Origin: an uncultured beta proteobacterium
Lineage (GTDB): Bacteria > Pseudomonadota > Gammaproteobacteria > Burkholderiales > Burkholderiaceae
Direction: 5' to 3'
Assembly: GCA_903909925.1 (NCBI GenBank)
Contig: CAIVXR010000224.1
Span: 1 to 45,046 of the forward strand
Length of the DNA: 45,046 bases
The position numbers and the translations under genes were made by a program. Shown here piece by piece: positions 15,218 to 22,646 of this stretch. A model generated the notes under the pieces. That model was not told the DNA's origin and ran no database searches. It saw only the letters and a list, made by a program, of their open reading frames with translations. Within the stretch, counting starts at the first letter, position 1, and each line of letters begins with the position of its first letter.

Positions 15218-15511
15218 TCATTCCCCCTTAGGTGCAGCTGGCAAAGGCATCCATTGTTTCATCCAATCTTCGTTAATCACGGGGGGAGCATAAGCGCTTA
15301 ACCACCACCCCTCGTTAGTATAAATAACTATTTCAATGTCACCACTGCCCATATGCGCTAAAAATGGCTTTCCGTCTTTGGGTGCTGTACGGATAGGTTT
15401 CCATTTAATTTTATCCAGTTTTTTTGTGATCAATCTTCCCATATCAATGCAAAGATCTAGTTGTTCTCTCAACAATTTGTTTTCTTTTTTGCAATCCTCC
15501 AGCTCATCCAT
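15218..15511 (-). CDS. DUF551-like small protein (copy 1)
   Basis: The start is at 15511 (MDELEDCKKENKLLREQ), preceded by GGAG, rather than at an upstream in-frame Met inside the neighbour. The product is 97 residues: a coiled-coil N-terminus, then a DUF551-type domain (WKPIRTAPKDGKPFLAH, later W-M-P-L-P-A-A-P). DUF551 proteins are common in phages and prophages, with no known function. The next upstream gene is a paralogue. The first bases overlap the paralogue's stop (15504). Confidence 0.8.
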   Translation of the reverse strand: MDELEDCKKENKLLREQLDLCIDMGRLITKKLDKIKWKPIRTAPKDGKPFLAHMGSGDIEIVIYTNEGWWLSAYAPPVINEDWMKQWMPLPAAPKGE

Positions 15512-15758
15512 TTGTTTTCTCCTTAGGTGGCTCCGACAAAGGCATCCAATGTGTCGGAATGACGGCTCCAGATGAAGCCGAATTTCTCCAAAACCCACCA
15601 TCTCTTGTTTGGTGAAAATACATGAGTTTGTGCTTTAGTTTTGTAGCTTTTGGATCATAACCCAAGACAATCCTGCCATCTTTAGGTGCGGTGTCCATCG
15701 GTTGCCAATTAAGAACATTAAATTGGCTGTAATGATCGGTGGTTGTGTAGTCAGTCAT
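15504..15758 (-). CDS. DUF551-like small protein (copy 2)
   Basis: ATG at 15758 follows AGGGGG; an in-frame Met 15 codons upstream lacks a site. The 84-residue product has the DUF551 signature at both ends: WQPMDTAPKDGRIVLGY and THWMPLSEPP. It shares W-x-P-x-x-TAPKDG with the downstream gene, so the two arose by tandem duplication and diverged greatly. Function unknown. Confidence 0.8.
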   Translation of the reverse strand: MTDYTTTDHYSQFNVLNWQPMDTAPKDGRIVLGYDPKATKLKHKLMYFHQTRDGGFWRNSASSGAVIPTHWMPLSEPPKEKTNG

Positions 15759-15783: not shown

Positions 15784-16011
15784 TTATCCATTGCTCGTAA
15801 CAAAATGGGATAGATTTACTTCTCTTTCGAGTAACCCAATGATGTCGCCCAAGACATCCAGTTTTGTGATCCCATCCATCCCCAAAAACTCTAATGTTAA
15901 CGTAACATCACCTTCAACCACATTTTCTTTCAGCCATAATGTTCCAATTCTTGTCCCTTTTGTCCGTTCTCCTTCATAGGATTCACCAGCAAATCTTTCA
16001 GGATTCCTCAT
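15784..16011 (-). CDS. Small hypothetical protein at the end of the LEGK gene array
   Basis: ATG 16011 lies inside the end of the preceding gene, and the ribosome-binding site is the GGAGGGGAAAG that encodes that gene's LEGK codons. The 75-residue product (MRNPERFAGESYEGERTKG, then LWLKENVVEGDVTLTLEFLG) is beta-rich, followed by a helix (LDVLGDIIGLLEREV). It lacks the leucine-zipper repeat of its neighbours. Not recognised. Confidence 0.65.
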   Translation of the reverse strand: MRNPERFAGESYEGERTKGTRIGTLWLKENVVEGDVTLTLEFLGMDGITKLDVLGDIIGLLEREVNLSHFVTSNG

Positions 16012-16216
16012 GTTCTTTCCCCTCCAATGCTTTTCTGGCGCGTTCAAGGTCTTGATGCGACACCATGCCATAATCAATCAAACGCCGCAGCGCCGCCTCC
16101 AGCTTTTCGATACGATTCGCTCGTTTTGTCAGTTCTTTGTTGTAATGAACTAAGCAATCTTGCCACATATGCAGTGTCATTTCCCCAAGCTCTGGTAACT
16201 TGATATTGTCACTCAT
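15998..16216 (-). CDS. Tandem mini-gene family member D (coiled coil, KALEGK C-terminus)
   Basis: ATG 16216 overlaps the stop of member C. The 72-residue protein has RIEKLEAALRRLIDYGMV (short coiled coil) and ends ARKALEGKEHEES. The codons for LEGK contain GGAGGGGAAAG, which serves as the Shine-Dalgarno site of the next gene (start 16011). Paralogous with the genes at 16209, 16545 and 16753. Function unknown; the short zipper suggests homo- or hetero-oligomers. Confidence 0.75.
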   Translation of the reverse strand: MSDNIKLPELGEMTLHMWQDCLVHYNKELTKRANRIEKLEAALRRLIDYGMVSHQDLERARKALEGKEHEES

Positions 16217-16454
16217 CTTTCCCCTCCAGTGCTTTACGGGCGATTCGTCCGGGCCAATATTTGTCTTCAGGCTCCGTGTAAGCGATTTCCCGCAGCGCCG
16301 CTTGTAGTTCTTCAACACGGTGAAAACAGTGATGTAAATCATCCTCCAGCGTCTCGATGCGGTCGGCGGATTCTACGCACACTGGATTGCCACATAGACA
16401 GTTAATGTCAGATGCTCCCCTATCGCGCAGCCGCTTCACAAGATCGTCGGTCAT
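16209..16454 (-). CDS. Tandem mini-gene family member C (MTDDLVKRLR type)
   Basis: An 81-residue protein opening MTDDLVKRLRDRG, identical in its first ten residues to member A. It has a Cys cluster (CLCGNPVC), a helical stretch with the degenerate repeat RVEELQAALREIAY, and the ending ARKALEGKDE. The start codon overlaps the stop of the 34-residue membrane protein (ATGA, 16451-16454). Its C-terminal codons carry the ribosome-binding site for member D. Family seen in many phages, function unknown. Confidence 0.75.
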   Translation of the reverse strand: MTDDLVKRLRDRGASDINCLCGNPVCVESADRIETLEDDLHHCFHRVEELQAALREIAYTEPEDKYWPGRIARKALEGKDE

Positions 16455-16555
16455 GGCGCGTTCCTTAGAACGTTAACTATCACCCAAGCTACAATTCCGA
16501 TGAAAACAATATCGGTTAAAGGGTCCATAAATGCCTTTATAATTTCAGTTGTCAC
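16451..16555 (-). CDS. 34-residue single-span membrane protein
   Basis: This gene is too short for normal calling but well supported. GTG 16555 follows GGAGGGG, the LEGK-type codons of member B, and the stop shares ATGA with member C. Translation starts MTTEIIKAFMDPLTD and continues as one membrane helix (IVFIGIVAWVIVNVL) ending RNAP. It is embedded between two soluble paralogues. A small membrane partner, antiholin-like or superinfection role is conceivable; nothing in the sequence decides. Confidence 0.68.
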   Translation of the reverse strand: MTTEIIKAFMDPLTDIVFIGIVAWVIVNVLRNAP

Positions 16556-16760
16556 TTTTCCCCTCCATTGCTTTGCGGACGATGTTCATAACGTCACCCA
16601 AAAATGGCCCATCCTCAACTACAAGCGTGCTGTCCCAATCAATCACCGCCCGCAGCGCCGCCTCCAGCTTCTCGATGCGGACTTCTAATTTTGCAACGTG
16701 TCCGGCGCGACGCATTGCCTCAAGCGTGTCAGGGTTGATAACTTTATAACGATCACTCAT
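16545..16760 (-). CDS. Tandem mini-gene family member B
   Basis: ATG 16760 overlaps the end of member A (GATGAGTGA), with GGAGGGGAAA as ribosome-binding site inside A's LEGK codons. The 71-residue product opens MSDRYKVINPDTLEAM, contains VRIEKLEAALRAVIDW and ends VRKAMEGKSDN. The MSD start is shared with member D (MSDNIK), and members A and C share MTDD, so two N-terminal types alternate along the array. Function unknown. Confidence 0.75.
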   Translation of the reverse strand: MSDRYKVINPDTLEAMRRAGHVAKLEVRIEKLEAALRAVIDWDSTLVVEDGPFLGDVMNIVRKAMEGKSDN

Positions 16761-16995
16761 CTTTCCCCTCCAGTGCTTCACGAGCGAAACGTTGCATTGC
16801 TTCCAACACAGTGCAGCATTCCCACTTATCGCACAGATCCCGCAGCGCCGCCTCCAACTGTTCGATGCGCCTACCATCCTCCATCATATTATTGAAGGAT
16901 CGAACAAGCGCGGCGTCCAGCTCCTCAATGCGTTCGGCGGCCTCATCGTATCTCCCTGCAAGCTCACGCAGCCGCTTCACAAGATCGTCAGTCAC
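16753..16995 (-). CDS. Tandem mini-gene family member A (two zipper repeats)
   Basis: GTG 16995 overlaps the upstream TGA, with GAAGG close by. The 80-residue protein opens MTDDLVKRLRELAGRYDE and carries two copies of the zipper repeat (RIEELDAALVRS and RIEQLEAALRDL), then a Cys pair, ending AREALEGKDE. It looks like the head of the array. The two internal repeats show that the zipper unit duplicates within genes as well as between them. Confidence 0.75.
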   Translation of the reverse strand: MTDDLVKRLRELAGRYDEAAERIEELDAALVRSFNNMMEDGRRIEQLEAALRDLCDKWECCTVLEAMQRFAREALEGKDE

Positions 16996-17372
16996 AGCCC
17001 TTCCCCCTCTTCACAATCAATCTCAACTTGCACACACCCGATGCGATGCGGCATAGCTTGGTCGTCAGCTTGTCTCTTCATAGCTTGGTCGTCAGCTTGT
17101 CTCTTCTCGTGATAAGCGCCTAAGCACTGATCGGGATAAACATTGATCCAGACCCGTTGCTTGATGCGCGGTTTGACTTCGATTAGGTCTTCATCTCGTT
17201 CGTATCCATAGCCAGAAAGCCCATCTTCTGACCAACTATAAACGTACCAGATACCTTCTTTTGTTTTGATTGCGCCATGAACCGATGCAACGCCGAAACC
17301 TTTATCAGTCGCATAGATACGAACTTCACGGCCATTGCGGGTGCGGTACTTTTTTTTAATATCAATTGTCAT
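16992..17372 (-). CDS. Paralogue 1 of a phage protein pair (YRTRxGREVRIYATD)
   Basis: A 126-residue protein opening MTIDIKKKYRTRNGREVRIY, near-identical in its N-terminus to the next upstream gene. It then has VHGAIKTKEGIWYVYSW and ends in an acidic EVEIDCEEGEGL-like tail, and looks like a small beta-rich fold. It contains an exact 27-bp tandem duplication (KRQADDQAM twice). The start overlaps the upstream stop (ATGA). Function unknown. Confidence 0.72.
   Translation of the reverse strand: MTIDIKKKYRTRNGREVRIYATDKGFGVASVHGAIKTKEGIWYVYSWSEDGLSGYGYERDEDLIEVKPRIKQRVWINVYPDQCLGAYHEKRQADDQAMKRQADDQAMPHRIGCVQVEIDCEEGEGL
17052..17105. repeat. Exact 27-bp tandem duplication in coding sequence
   Basis: Two identical 27-bp units (17052-17078 and 17079-17105) encode KRQADDQAM twice on the minus strand. 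No base differs, so the event is recent. It keeps the frame, and the paralogue at 17369 has a single, diverged version. Confidence 0.95.
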
Positions 17373-17737
17373 AAGCCATCCCCCTCTTCAAAATCCAACT
17401 CGACCTTGATGCAAGCGATGCGGTCAAAAGAAGCCCTATTTGCCCGTGCATCAGCGTGTTCTTTGTTGTCCCAGTTGCTGATAGATTTTTCATACACATT
17501 CAACCACACCGTCCGCTTGTGGCGGGGGCGAACTTCAATTAAATCAATTTTCGATATTGCTGCTGAGTTTGCGTAGTTTTTCCCGGTTTCTGCATTCCAG
17601 ATAGCAAATACCCAATTATTGCCATTCAATACTGCCCCATGAATGGTTTGCCCTTCAACAAGATCGCCCCCATCAGTCGCATAGATGCGGACTTCGCGAC
17701 CATCGCGTGTGCGATACTTTTTGGTGATGTCGATCAT
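17369..17737 (-). CDS. Paralogue 2 of a phage protein pair (YRTRxGREVRIYATD)
   Basis: A 122-residue protein: MIDITKKYRTRDGREVRIYA, then IHGAVLNGNNWVFAIW, then DLIEVRPRHKRTVWLNVY, ending in an acidic ELDFEEGDGL. It aligns along its full length with the next gene (YATD, HGA, DLIEV, VWxNVY and EGxGL are shared), so the pair is a tandem duplication. Overlaps of four bases at both ends show translational coupling. Function unknown. Confidence 0.72.
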   Translation of the reverse strand: MIDITKKYRTRDGREVRIYATDGGDLVEGQTIHGAVLNGNNWVFAIWNAETGKNYANSAAISKIDLIEVRPRHKRTVWLNVYEKSISNWDNKEHADARANRASFDRIACIKVELDFEEGDGL

Positions 17738-19569: not shown

Positions 19570-19825
19570 AGCTTTGTTTATCTCCGTGTATTTGAATTTT
19601 ACCAATTTTGTCTGTGTTTACGCCGATATCACCCTTATCAATCCAGATAATTTCACCTTTTTCAGATAAAGAATCACCCTTATAGAGTTGATTAACCGCG
19701 ATGAATGTTAATTTGTTTAATTCTTCGCATAGCTCTCTAACTGAATTGGCTGAATGTTCTATCGTGACTTGGTGAACCAGTGATCCTTGGGAAGATGGCA
19801 TATCCAATGTAAGTACAAATTTCAT
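19481..19825 (-). CDS. Hypothetical protein with long out-of-frame overlap
   Basis: A 114-residue protein: MKFVLTLDMPSSQGSLVHQV, then SVRELCEELNKLTFIAVNQL, then GEIIWIDKGDIGVNTDKIGK. The start overlaps the HNH stop (ATGA). The last ~30 residues (ending GRPVRPGRRVL) are read from the same DNA as the start of the DUF6378-like gene, giving a low-complexity tail, so the functional part probably ends near residue 85. Either a true overlap or a lost stop. Not recognised. Confidence 0.6.
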   Translation of the reverse strand: MKFVLTLDMPSSQGSLVHQVTIEHSANSVRELCEELNKLTFIAVNQLYKGDSLSEKGEIIWIDKGDIGVNTDKIGKIQIHGDKQSYDNSHGNPKFSRNDFEGKGRPVRPGRRVL

Positions 19826-20169
19826 CCATTCCTCCTAACTACTGTTCCATCCATCTTACGTTTCCATTTTGAGTTTTTGCTTCCGGGCATTGTACCCTTC
19901 GGTCTTGTTGCTCCTATATGCTTTTGGTGTACTCGTTTCACTTTTGCGATGAGCGGCATGTCAACTTTTGCAGTATGCTGTCTATGGCAACTACGATGAG
20001 CAACAAACCAATTGCTATCGTCATCCTTGCCGCCTGCCTCCAGGGGTATCTCATGGCTTACATCCCAATCTTGCCCTGGCGTAACCTTCATGCTGCACAT
20101 ATGGCAAACACCACCATGCCTCAAGAAAATATCGGCCCGCATCTTTGCGGTTATACGAACACGTTTCAT
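19822..20169 (-). CDS. HNH endonuclease
   Basis: A 115-residue protein with a zinc-binding HNH core: C22-x2-C25, DWDVSHEIPLEAGGKDD (D36 and the general-base-type H39), N53, then C61-H62 and H65. The C-terminus is basic (KNSKWKRKMDGTVVRR). HNH enzymes nick or cut DNA; in phages they serve in homing, packaging or defence. It is not next to the terminase, so a packaging role is less likely. Coupled by ATGA to the downstream gene. Confidence 0.85.
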   Translation of the reverse strand: MKRVRITAKMRADIFLRHGGVCHMCSMKVTPGQDWDVSHEIPLEAGGKDDDSNWFVAHRSCHRQHTAKVDMPLIAKVKRVHQKHIGATRPKGTMPGSKNSKWKRKMDGTVVRRNG

Positions 20170-21462: not shown

Positions 21463-22080
21463 TCAAACCTCATACTTTTGTTTAAGTTGCGCTATCTTTT
21501 CATCAAGCTCACCCAAGAACTTGATAACTTCTTGTTCCATATCCGCTATCAACTTGTCATCACGGTTAATGCGTTGGATGAATAGTTGCATGTTCTCAGG
21601 CAAGCGCGGATCATAAGATACGAAGTCGCACCACTGGCGGCCCGTACATGCCATCTGCCATTGCATCTGAGAGACGTACTTTGATGGGGCTTCTTGCCCT
21701 AGCAGCGTATCGACATGCGTGGCTGTGTTGGGGCATTTGATCTCAACTAAACCATCCTCGCCAATCAAGCCGTCTGGACTAGCCCCAGACATCTCAATGA
21801 TGGAATGGGGAACAAAGCCAGTTTCAACAACGATAGAGCCAGTCTCGACTTCATATGCGGCTCTAGCATTAGGTTCTTGCTCTGTCCCCCACTGCATAGC
21901 GGCGTTCTGGTAGTAGTCCCCCTGCCTACCGCTCAGCCGCTCCACCAACAGGTCAGCCATATAGTTTGCTCGGCTGGCCCCGTATCCTGTCTTGGTCTTA
22001 GCCATCACATCCGCAACGCGGGAAGCTGTCACCTTCCCAAGCCGCGCCTGATGCCATTCATCAGTTCCCTGATCCATCAC
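21463..22080 (-). CDS. YqaJ/lambda-exonuclease-type recombinase nuclease
   Basis: A 205-residue protein. GTDEWHQARLGKVTASRVAD is the classic YqaJ opening. WGTEQEPNARAAYE supplies the first acidic residues, and SGASPDGLIGEDGLVEIKCP the D...E-x-K catalytic set. Length fits the family. These enzymes resect DNA 5' to 3' and hand the strand to an annealing protein, here the ERF gene directly upstream (4-base overlap). Together they form a phage single-strand annealing system. Confidence 0.93.
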   Translation of the reverse strand: MMDQGTDEWHQARLGKVTASRVADVMAKTKTGYGASRANYMADLLVERLSGRQGDYYQNAAMQWGTEQEPNARAAYEVETGSIVVETGFVPHSIIEMSGASPDGLIGEDGLVEIKCPNTATHVDTLLGQEAPSKYVSQMQWQMACTGRQWCDFVSYDPRLPENMQLFIQRINRDDKLIADMEQEVIKFLGELDEKIAQLKQKYEV

Positions 22081-22646
22081 TTGTCATCCTTCTTGGAAAC
22101 CGCATCAGCAACCTTCTTCAGTTCAGCAATCTCTTCATTGGAAAAAGCCTTACGGGCATCGGAGGACATGGACTTCCAGTATTCGGTCAAAGCAACCGTA
22201 CCTTGGGCGGCAATCTCTTTGGCAGCGTCAAACTGATCGTTCTTCTTCTTCGCTGCGGAAGCTGTAGCGGCATTGCCATCATCATCATCAGCCGCCAGAT
22301 TAAGGATGCTGCTCAAGCTGTAGCGGCGGCAATAGGACAATGCAGACCCGATAGCTTGGGGAGTGTTCTGTCCATAAGGCATACGCAACACCTCGGAAAT
22401 GTATTCACCCGACTTATGTATCAGCATGGTTTCAACTTCGACATTGCTGCCGTCAACACGAGGCAGCTGAACGATAGATAAATCGTTAACAGCAAGCGGT
22501 TCACGGATAGCTTCCCGCAAAGAGTTAAGATCCGCATAGCGACTTTTGAAATGCGGGTTTAAGGAACTCTTGGTAGCAGCATCGATCTGGCCCTGTGCTT
22601 TAGACAAAGCTGTGGCGATCTCTGCAATGGTGTCAGACATTTTCAT
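22077..22646 (-). CDS. erf: ERF-family single-strand annealing protein
   Basis: A 189-residue protein. SLNPHFKSRYADLNSLREAI and LSIVQLPRVDGSNVEVETML are ERF-superfamily core motifs, followed by TPQAIGSALSYCRRYSLSSI, then LAADDDDGNAA, a nearly invariant ERF stretch. The C-terminus is a Lys/Glu helix. The protein anneals complementary strands during recombination and genome circularisation. AAGGA precedes ATG 22646. It works with the exonuclease downstream. Confidence 0.95.
   Translation of the reverse strand: MKMSDTIAEIATALSKAQGQIDAATKSSLNPHFKSRYADLNSLREAIREPLAVNDLSIVQLPRVDGSNVEVETMLIHKSGEYISEVLRMPYGQNTPQAIGSALSYCRRYSLSSILNLAADDDDGNAATASAAKKKNDQFDAAKEIAAQGTVALTEYWKSMSSDARKAFSNEEIAELKKVADAVSKKDDK

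Follow-up and report, generated by a model that had tools for sequence, protein, structure and literature searches.

A probable two-joint array of exchangeable half-genes in a freshwater-type tailed-phage genome

The window analysed here, meaning the whole stretch of DNA under study (45,046 nucleotides), is a single contig (C224) within a 1.8-Mb bin in which no 16S gene was found. It makes up all or much of the genome of a freshwater-type tailed phage, with genes for a Terminase_6C-type terminase, an SU10-type portal, an Sf6-like small terminase, RusA and a primase. On the minus strand, an operon-like run leads from an ERF annealase and a YqaJ exonuclease, adjoining genes that form a Red-like module, through many small genes to an array of tiny genes (16995-15784), followed by a DUF551 gene and a glycosyltransferase gene (Table 1). 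The array is housed in a phage operon of early type, and its gene content suggests early expression. Scans for promoters and terminators gave no excess over chance, and no integrase or resolvase was found among the window genes scanned. The same run contains an HNH endonuclease gene (19822-20169), of which a copy 82% identical can be found in another array locus (L126). Immediately upstream of the array lie two neighbouring, diverged paralogues (16992-17372 and 17369-17737; KKYRTRDGREVRIYAT...), with relatives in about 36 array loci. The DUF551 gene and the gene adjoining it (15218-15511) have a W.PxxTAPKDG motif in common.

Table 1. Positions of the array genes, their joints and selected neighbouring genes in the window.
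Feature	Position	Strand	Remarks
ERF-superfamily single-strand annealing recombinase	22077..22646	-	Pfam PF04404, E 8e-24
YqaJ-type exonuclease	21463..22080	-	Pfam PF09588, E 3e-30; upstream of array, same strand
u1, GTG start; N half + zipper + C half; end ALEGKDE	16753..16995	-	read directly
Start-side repeat coding TDDLVKRLR, u1 copy	16964..16994	-	repeat D4, 94%
Zipper joint in u1 (RIEQLEAALR)	16840..16869	-	
Seam joint u1/u2, GCACTGGAGGGGAAAGATGA	16757..16776	-	
u2; end AMEGKSDN	16545..16760	-	read directly
Zipper joint in u2 (RIEKLEAALR), exact consensus CGCATCGAGAAGCTGGAGGCGGCGCTGCGG	16650..16679	-	
Seam joint u2/u3, GCAATGGAGGGGAAAAGTGA	16552..16571	-	
u3, 34-aa membrane protein, one-piece cassette, GTG start	16451..16555	-	homologues L380, L085, L170, L116
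u4; C half separated from the zipper by an 18-aa middle module (DDLHHCFHRVEELQAALR); end ALEGKDE	16209..16454	-	read directly
Start-side repeat coding TDDLVKRLR, u4 copy	16423..16453	-	repeat D4
Broken zipper of u4, comprising the first half of the zipper, the middle module and the second AALR end	16290..16361	-	
Seam joint u4/u5, GCACTGGAGGGGAAAGATGA	16213..16232	-	
u5; end ALEGKEHEES	15998..16216	-	read directly
Zipper joint in u5	16085..16114	-	
Seam joint u5/u6, GCATTGGAGGGGAAAGAACATGA	16008..16030	-	
u6, unrelated 75-aa gene, started from u5 seam	15784..16011	-	homologues L196, L154, L189, L132
DUF551 protein, directly 3' of array	15504..15758	-	Pfam PF04448, E 1e-7

The original prediction stated that four of the array genes are paralogues ending in x-A-[LM]-E-G-K, and that the codons of this tail form a Shine-Dalgarno (SD) site for a next gene whose start overlaps the stop. 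Direct reading bears out both points. Three genes end in ALEGK and one (u2) in AMEGK, the tail codons of u1, u2, u4 and u5 place GGAGGGGAAA ahead of the next start, and the stop/start overlaps at these four ends are 8, 11, 8 and 14 nt long (GATGAGTGA twice, GTGACAACTGA and ATGAGGAATCCTGA). TGGAGGGGAAA occurs four times in the window, every time at one of these seams, against an expectation of 0.06 from shuffles. Unrelated genes use the seam as well, as had been claimed, namely u3 and u6 (16011-15784). The claim that each unit carries the signal for its successor holds for u1, u2, u4 and u5 and fails for u3, which is without LEGK and supplies a different SD. In an alignment of 182 related seams, for which the presence of GGAGG was a selection requirement, the gap from GGAGG to the NTG is 6 nt in 161, a good Shine-Dalgarno spacing, and the conserved stretch around the GGAGG runs from about -14 to +18.

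A 20-base seam pattern matches at least 120 viral-contig stretches. When 121 distinct sites were translated, the upstream frame in nearly all of them ended in A-LEGKD[DE] and the downstream frame began at the overlapping ATG, with downstream products ranging from membrane proteins of 23-45 aa up to proteins of 176 aa. The cargo between seams varies, as predicted: across 292 non-redundant junctions with diverse downstream genes, more than one downstream neighbour is found for 44 of the 45 recurring upstream C ends, and more than one upstream neighbour for 33 of the 36 recurring downstream starts. Among junction pairs, 283 share one side at 85% or more with the other side unrelated, and 7 share both. 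A 26-aa protein (MSEYEVAAFWxVIFI...) was found after 11 different C ends, and the u2 start of the window belongs to a group of nine such junctions in which no two upstream genes are the same. These comparisons show that neighbours assort almost freely at the seam. In 84,980 bacterial and archaeal genomes the exact pattern occurs in only six stretches, where a rough estimate of chance gives about four, although two contigs binned as Opitutae (L202 and L204, see below) do have true cassettes.

The proteins had also been said to share a zipper repeat. The repeat is real, forming in the window a 43-nt family of 60-86% identity whose 30-bp cores at 16650-16679 and 16085-16114 differ, by eye, at two bases. 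What had been overlooked is that the zipper is a second joint, inside genes and as important as the seam, so that half-genes move and not whole genes alone. It divides most array genes into an N half and a C half. When the two kinds of half were clustered separately, each of the 22 recurring N clusters was combined with at least two different C halves, and 20 of the 21 recurring C clusters were combined with at least two N halves. In an enlarged set of 184 distinct genes, 143 gene pairs share one half at a DNA identity of at least 85% with the other half unrelated, and only two pairs share both. In zipper-anchored alignments, gene pairs with a common C half lose identity exactly at the 5' edge of the zipper (0.97 before the drop, about 0.3 after it), and those with a common N half do so at its 3' edge (about 0.9 and about 0.25). 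The ends of long local alignments of one array with another lie within joints in 627 of 832 cases (circular-shift mean 298, sd 19), and zippers and seams are each enriched for such ends about twofold. On this evidence halves, like neighbours, assort almost freely.

The genes of the window take part in this assortment. The N half of u2 recurs in eight further loci, each time with other C halves, and its C half can be found with other N halves in L393, L375, L086 and L019; the C half of u1 is joined to other N halves in L204 and L202. The last two are phage-like contigs binned as Opitutae bacteria, with true cassettes in which the u1 C half is recognizable at 59-68%; this binning could be a host lead or a mis-binning. 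The window array is itself imperfect, since an 18-aa module interrupts the zipper of u4. A middle module (ELHHCFHRIEELQAALR), a third exchangeable piece, stands between zipper and C half in about 20 loci, including L164, L187, L005 and L049. We compared u5 with the L049 gene, which it matches at 91% in the N half and 89% in the C half while being without the 18-aa middle module of that gene; the difference counts among the directly visible events.

Both joints are conserved at the level of DNA. Because the first seam set had been picked by its DNA, we checked codon use on loci fetched by protein query instead, in which 56 genes end in [x][LM]EGK. The seam GAG is used in 55 of these (background 0.49), GGG in 50 (0.19) and AAA in 54 (0.40), and a start codon follows 1-4 nt past the AAA in 54. 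In a wider set the tail peptide drifts (LEEK, LEDK, LEEN, LEER, LEGE, LEAT) with GGAGG retained, and GGAGG is absent from only 3 of 138 LEGK ends, one of which (L180) is without a next gene. The codon bias and the constancy of GGAGG despite peptide drift show that it is the DNA of the seam that is preserved, in line with its use as an SD site. Since the SD is retained as the peptide drifts, the pattern named in the original prediction as speaking against it, synonymous loss of GGAGGGG with the next gene kept, is not what these ends display; cross-tabulating the SD against the presence of a next start was non-discriminating, the next-start rule being permissive. The span conserved at DNA level is wider than an SD requires. 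Of 70 independent combinations, the two codons of the zipper GCG-GCG pair are used in 66 and 69 (background 0.22) and CGG in 59 (0.19). Exact zipper runs of at least 23 bp occur in 11.3% of unrelated-half pairs, compared with 0.04% when codons are redrawn, and the zipper codons are frozen far past any protein requirement.

Two pairs of collinear, nearly identical contigs contain alternative forms of the array. L128 and L185 are 98-99% identical across about 11 kb, with L185 longer by 322 bp. In L185, one gene joins a 'CEEHWPLDW' N half to an 'EIADCC' C half and a second joins a 'LIGEKRLQC' N half to a 'RIKDMHDG' C half, where L128 has a single gene made of 'CEEHWPLDW' and 'RIKDMHDG', with its junction in 24 bp identical between both zippers. 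The difference reads as a 322-bp zipper-to-zipper indel that fuses two genes. The gene that follows shares the N half and has a different C half. Between L006 and L007 there is a 379-bp insertion with the seam at its edges, which supports, broadly, the idea of a gene-acquisition site, for acquisition and for replacement. Clean indels between close relatives number four by automated listing, too few for statistics; the differences within most close pairs are larger replacements, of which one end or neither lies at a joint.

The idea that the array propagates itself by duplication is not supported: none of about 81 same-locus gene pairs in the sampled arrays share a half at 80% or more. Halves are drawn instead from a pool common to different phages. 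Among 122 half-sharing pairs, 88 have less than 5% DNA similarity over the remaining locus, although the loci may cover different genome regions, and this low similarity shows halves crossing phage backbones. The halves are under purifying selection (pN/pS 0.56 for N halves and 0.28 for C halves).

Taken together, the locus is very probably a two-joint combinatorial array of half-gene cassettes that are exchanged between phages by homologous recombination at joints of about 30 bp. A typical unit runs from an N half-gene through a zipper joint of about 30 bp, placed mid-helix, to a C half-gene and a seam joint of about 30 bp (ARKALEGKDD*/start), which supplies the SD site and the start context of the next unit; one-piece units (membrane proteins of 26-45 aa and others) also insert at the seam. 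Since exchange at the zipper leaves the codon phase of a helix undisturbed, and exchange at the seam does not part start, stop and SD from one another, almost all exchanges would yield intact, translated genes. Exchange would take place between co-infecting phages or between repeats within one genome, and phage exonuclease/annealase systems such as the YqaJ and ERF pair of the window would probably perform it. Measurements put the shortest length that can pair at 23-27 bp with Red-beta and 31-34 bp with RecA (PMC3945230), to which joints of about 30 bp come near. Erf-type annealases use short diverged homology, and the Erf/exo pair of phage D3 recombines diverged DNA well (PMC3945230). Searches of 35 longer array contigs, many of them incomplete, for ERF, AAA_24 and RecT found ERF in six, a Sak4-like AAA_24 in three and a weak RecT match in three, and pointed to no recombinase common to all arrays, so that the link to any one enzyme is weak. 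The array does not track the exonuclease lineage, since it lies nearby in only 6 of 80 loci with exonuclease relatives. Selection could account for the conservation of the joints, and so could repeated exchange itself.

Other explanations were weighed against homologous exchange at the joints. Phage operons, the lambda nin region among them, often have starts that overlap the preceding gene and SDs inside it, and the window paralogues do share their seam, so that it might represent ordinary tight packing, with an SD inside each upstream gene, inherited by tandem duplication of four paralogues without any movement. We regard this as very improbable, given that at least 120 contig stretches have one and the same seam between genes that are unrelated and assort almost freely, that the sampled arrays hold no recent duplicates and that the zipper joint would be left unexplained; as a full account, tight packing is refuted by the absent duplicates and the junction assortment. 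Most loci are metagenome assemblies, largely from short reads, and many IMG datasets re-assemble identical reads, which raises the question of whether assemblers joined wrong halves at repeats of about 30 bp. Usual assembly k-mers exceed 30 bp, however, and the window comes from a separate assembly. Joint-spanning sequences (30 nt of the N side, the zipper and 36 nt of the C side) are exact in at least two loci in 68 of 184 cases, and many of the exact groups span IMG datasets (for example L003/L004/L005, L010/L011/L012, L054/L056/L057, L060/L064/L066). This recurrence argues against chimeras, not fully, because some datasets may re-assemble the same reads; with the alternative forms in L128/L185 and L006/L007, which are otherwise collinear, it leaves chimeras little chance of being the explanation.

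A dedicated site-specific enzyme, either the HNH endonuclease or an unknown recombinase that cuts or recombines at the joints, would fit the position of the HNH gene near the array and its similarity to the L126 copy. Yet the two joints differ in sequence and inverted symmetry was not seen, the genes scanned in the window include no integrase or resolvase, and HNH relatives occur in only nine loci, which makes such an enzyme highly unlikely. The joints might also be conserved only through protein need, for a zipper helix and an LEGK tail, with illegitimate exchange everywhere and survivors joined there. In both of two AlphaFold models (mean pLDDT 79 and 72) the zipper lies in the middle of a long continuous helix flanked by two other helices, and the model of u2 has three helices at low to moderate confidence; fusions at the zipper would then keep the helix continuous and be tolerated. 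The classical view of phage mosaicism is likewise one of illegitimate recombination and selection (as cited in PMC3203893). Protein need does not account for the frozen third codon positions, for exact DNA runs more than 200-fold above the codon-redrawn expectation at 23 bp, or for a seam whose DNA core stays constant as its peptide changes, and we consider it unlikely.

If homologous exchange at the joints is accepted, a bolder version of it can be put forward only tentatively and is rather improbable as it stands: that the joints are selected as recombination substrates, and that phages of different lineages within a habitat share one pool of half-genes, re-paired at each co-infection, so that small proteins directed at the host or at its defences would gain a combinatorial, V(D)J-like diversity and the seam would ensure their expression. 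As to function, Pfam and PHROGs family searches with the array genes gave only chance-level coiled-coil matches, and the u4 model had no significant match when its fold was compared with viral models. Our likeliest guess is that the array proteins are small regulators which act on host or phage and are exposed to changing selection, as Ea22 is in lambda.

Related ideas are known, among them HsdS domain movement, Start Associated Sequences (SAS), Ea22 mosaicism and annealase mosaicism; the open literature searched yielded no earlier description of such arrays or of this combination. A chain of interlinked small genes with overlapping stop/start junctions and internal SD sites was reportedly described in lambda ninR by Kroger and Hobom in 1982, and we know of no half-gene exchange in that chain. 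The array resembles Ea22 of lambda and Stx phages (exo-xis region) in its operon position by an exonuclease gene (PMC10834534). Ea22 variants have a common N part and coiled coil with unrelated C domains (PMC10834534), and the array genes have a similar plan of a short variable N part, a central helix and unrelated C parts, although their coiled coil is predicted and their helix modelled. The portable domains of Ea22 include DUF551 (PMC10834534), and a DUF551 gene follows the window array. In contrast to the array, Ea22 comprises a few variants of one gene, without half-gene arrays, conserved DNA joints or a shared SD seam, and the Ead_Ea22 profile (PF13935) gave no match up to E=1 in any of the six array genes. 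We read the likeness as a resemblance of kind rather than membership.

In the domain movement (DOMO) of HsdS in type I restriction, repeats of about 19-37 bp flank variable domains, and recombination swaps, deletes or duplicates domains (PMC3077401). The array has the same near-identical DNA repeats flanking exchangeable, unrelated domains, but HsdS involves two domains of one specificity gene, whereas the array consists of strings of tiny phage genes with joints inside and between them; no Pfam match to an HsdS or target recognition domain profile was found among the array genes. SAS of cluster K mycobacteriophages are SD-bearing 13-bp sequences (GGGATAGGAGCCC), conserved beyond rRNA pairing, ahead of unrelated small non-structural genes (PMC3203893). 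The seam is likewise an SD-bearing repeat a few bases ahead of unrelated small gene starts, but its consensus is GCACTGGAGGGGAAAGATGA, and SAS have not been reported to serve as joints that encode the C-terminus of the preceding gene, nor to be paired with an intragenic joint (PMC3203893). Mosaicism driven by Rad52-like annealases also relies on short diverged homology, and exo and annealase genes are present in the window; that homology is incidental and longer (hundreds of bp), whereas the array has joints of about 30 bp recurring between hundreds of cassettes (PMC3945230, PMC2327257). Integron cassette arrays are marked by an integron integrase and attC hairpins, and the window genes scanned include no integrase.

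The array bears on an old question, namely why phage mosaicism so often gives in-frame, expressed genes, whether by illegitimate joining and selection or by homology-guided exchange. Its joints are short, defined and countable, and therefore open to direct tests of how long and how similar they must be for exchange to occur, of which enzyme acts and of what the products are used for. Small phage protein 'families' may be combinations of separately inherited halves, and the seam would be a natural plug-in site that brings its own ribosome-binding site.

Some further observations concern the joints and their relatives. CTGGAGG is common to seam and zipper, and the zipper joint (for example at 16650-16679) contains GCTGGAGG, which is one base off the E. 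coli Chi sequence (GCTGGTGG). In L154, the first 24 or so amino acids of the paralogue family found upstream of the array (16992-17737) are joined to a TRKALEGKDD seam, a cross-family exchange at the seam. Among cultured phages only Roseobacter phage CRP-831 has a relative, a weak one, and another occurs in the uncultured Manatee Spring genome. The CRP-831 gene (L205, 3007-3471) is a single MTDDLVKRLR...RIEQLE gene that starts within the preceding gene, and is the nearest laboratory-accessible relative found.
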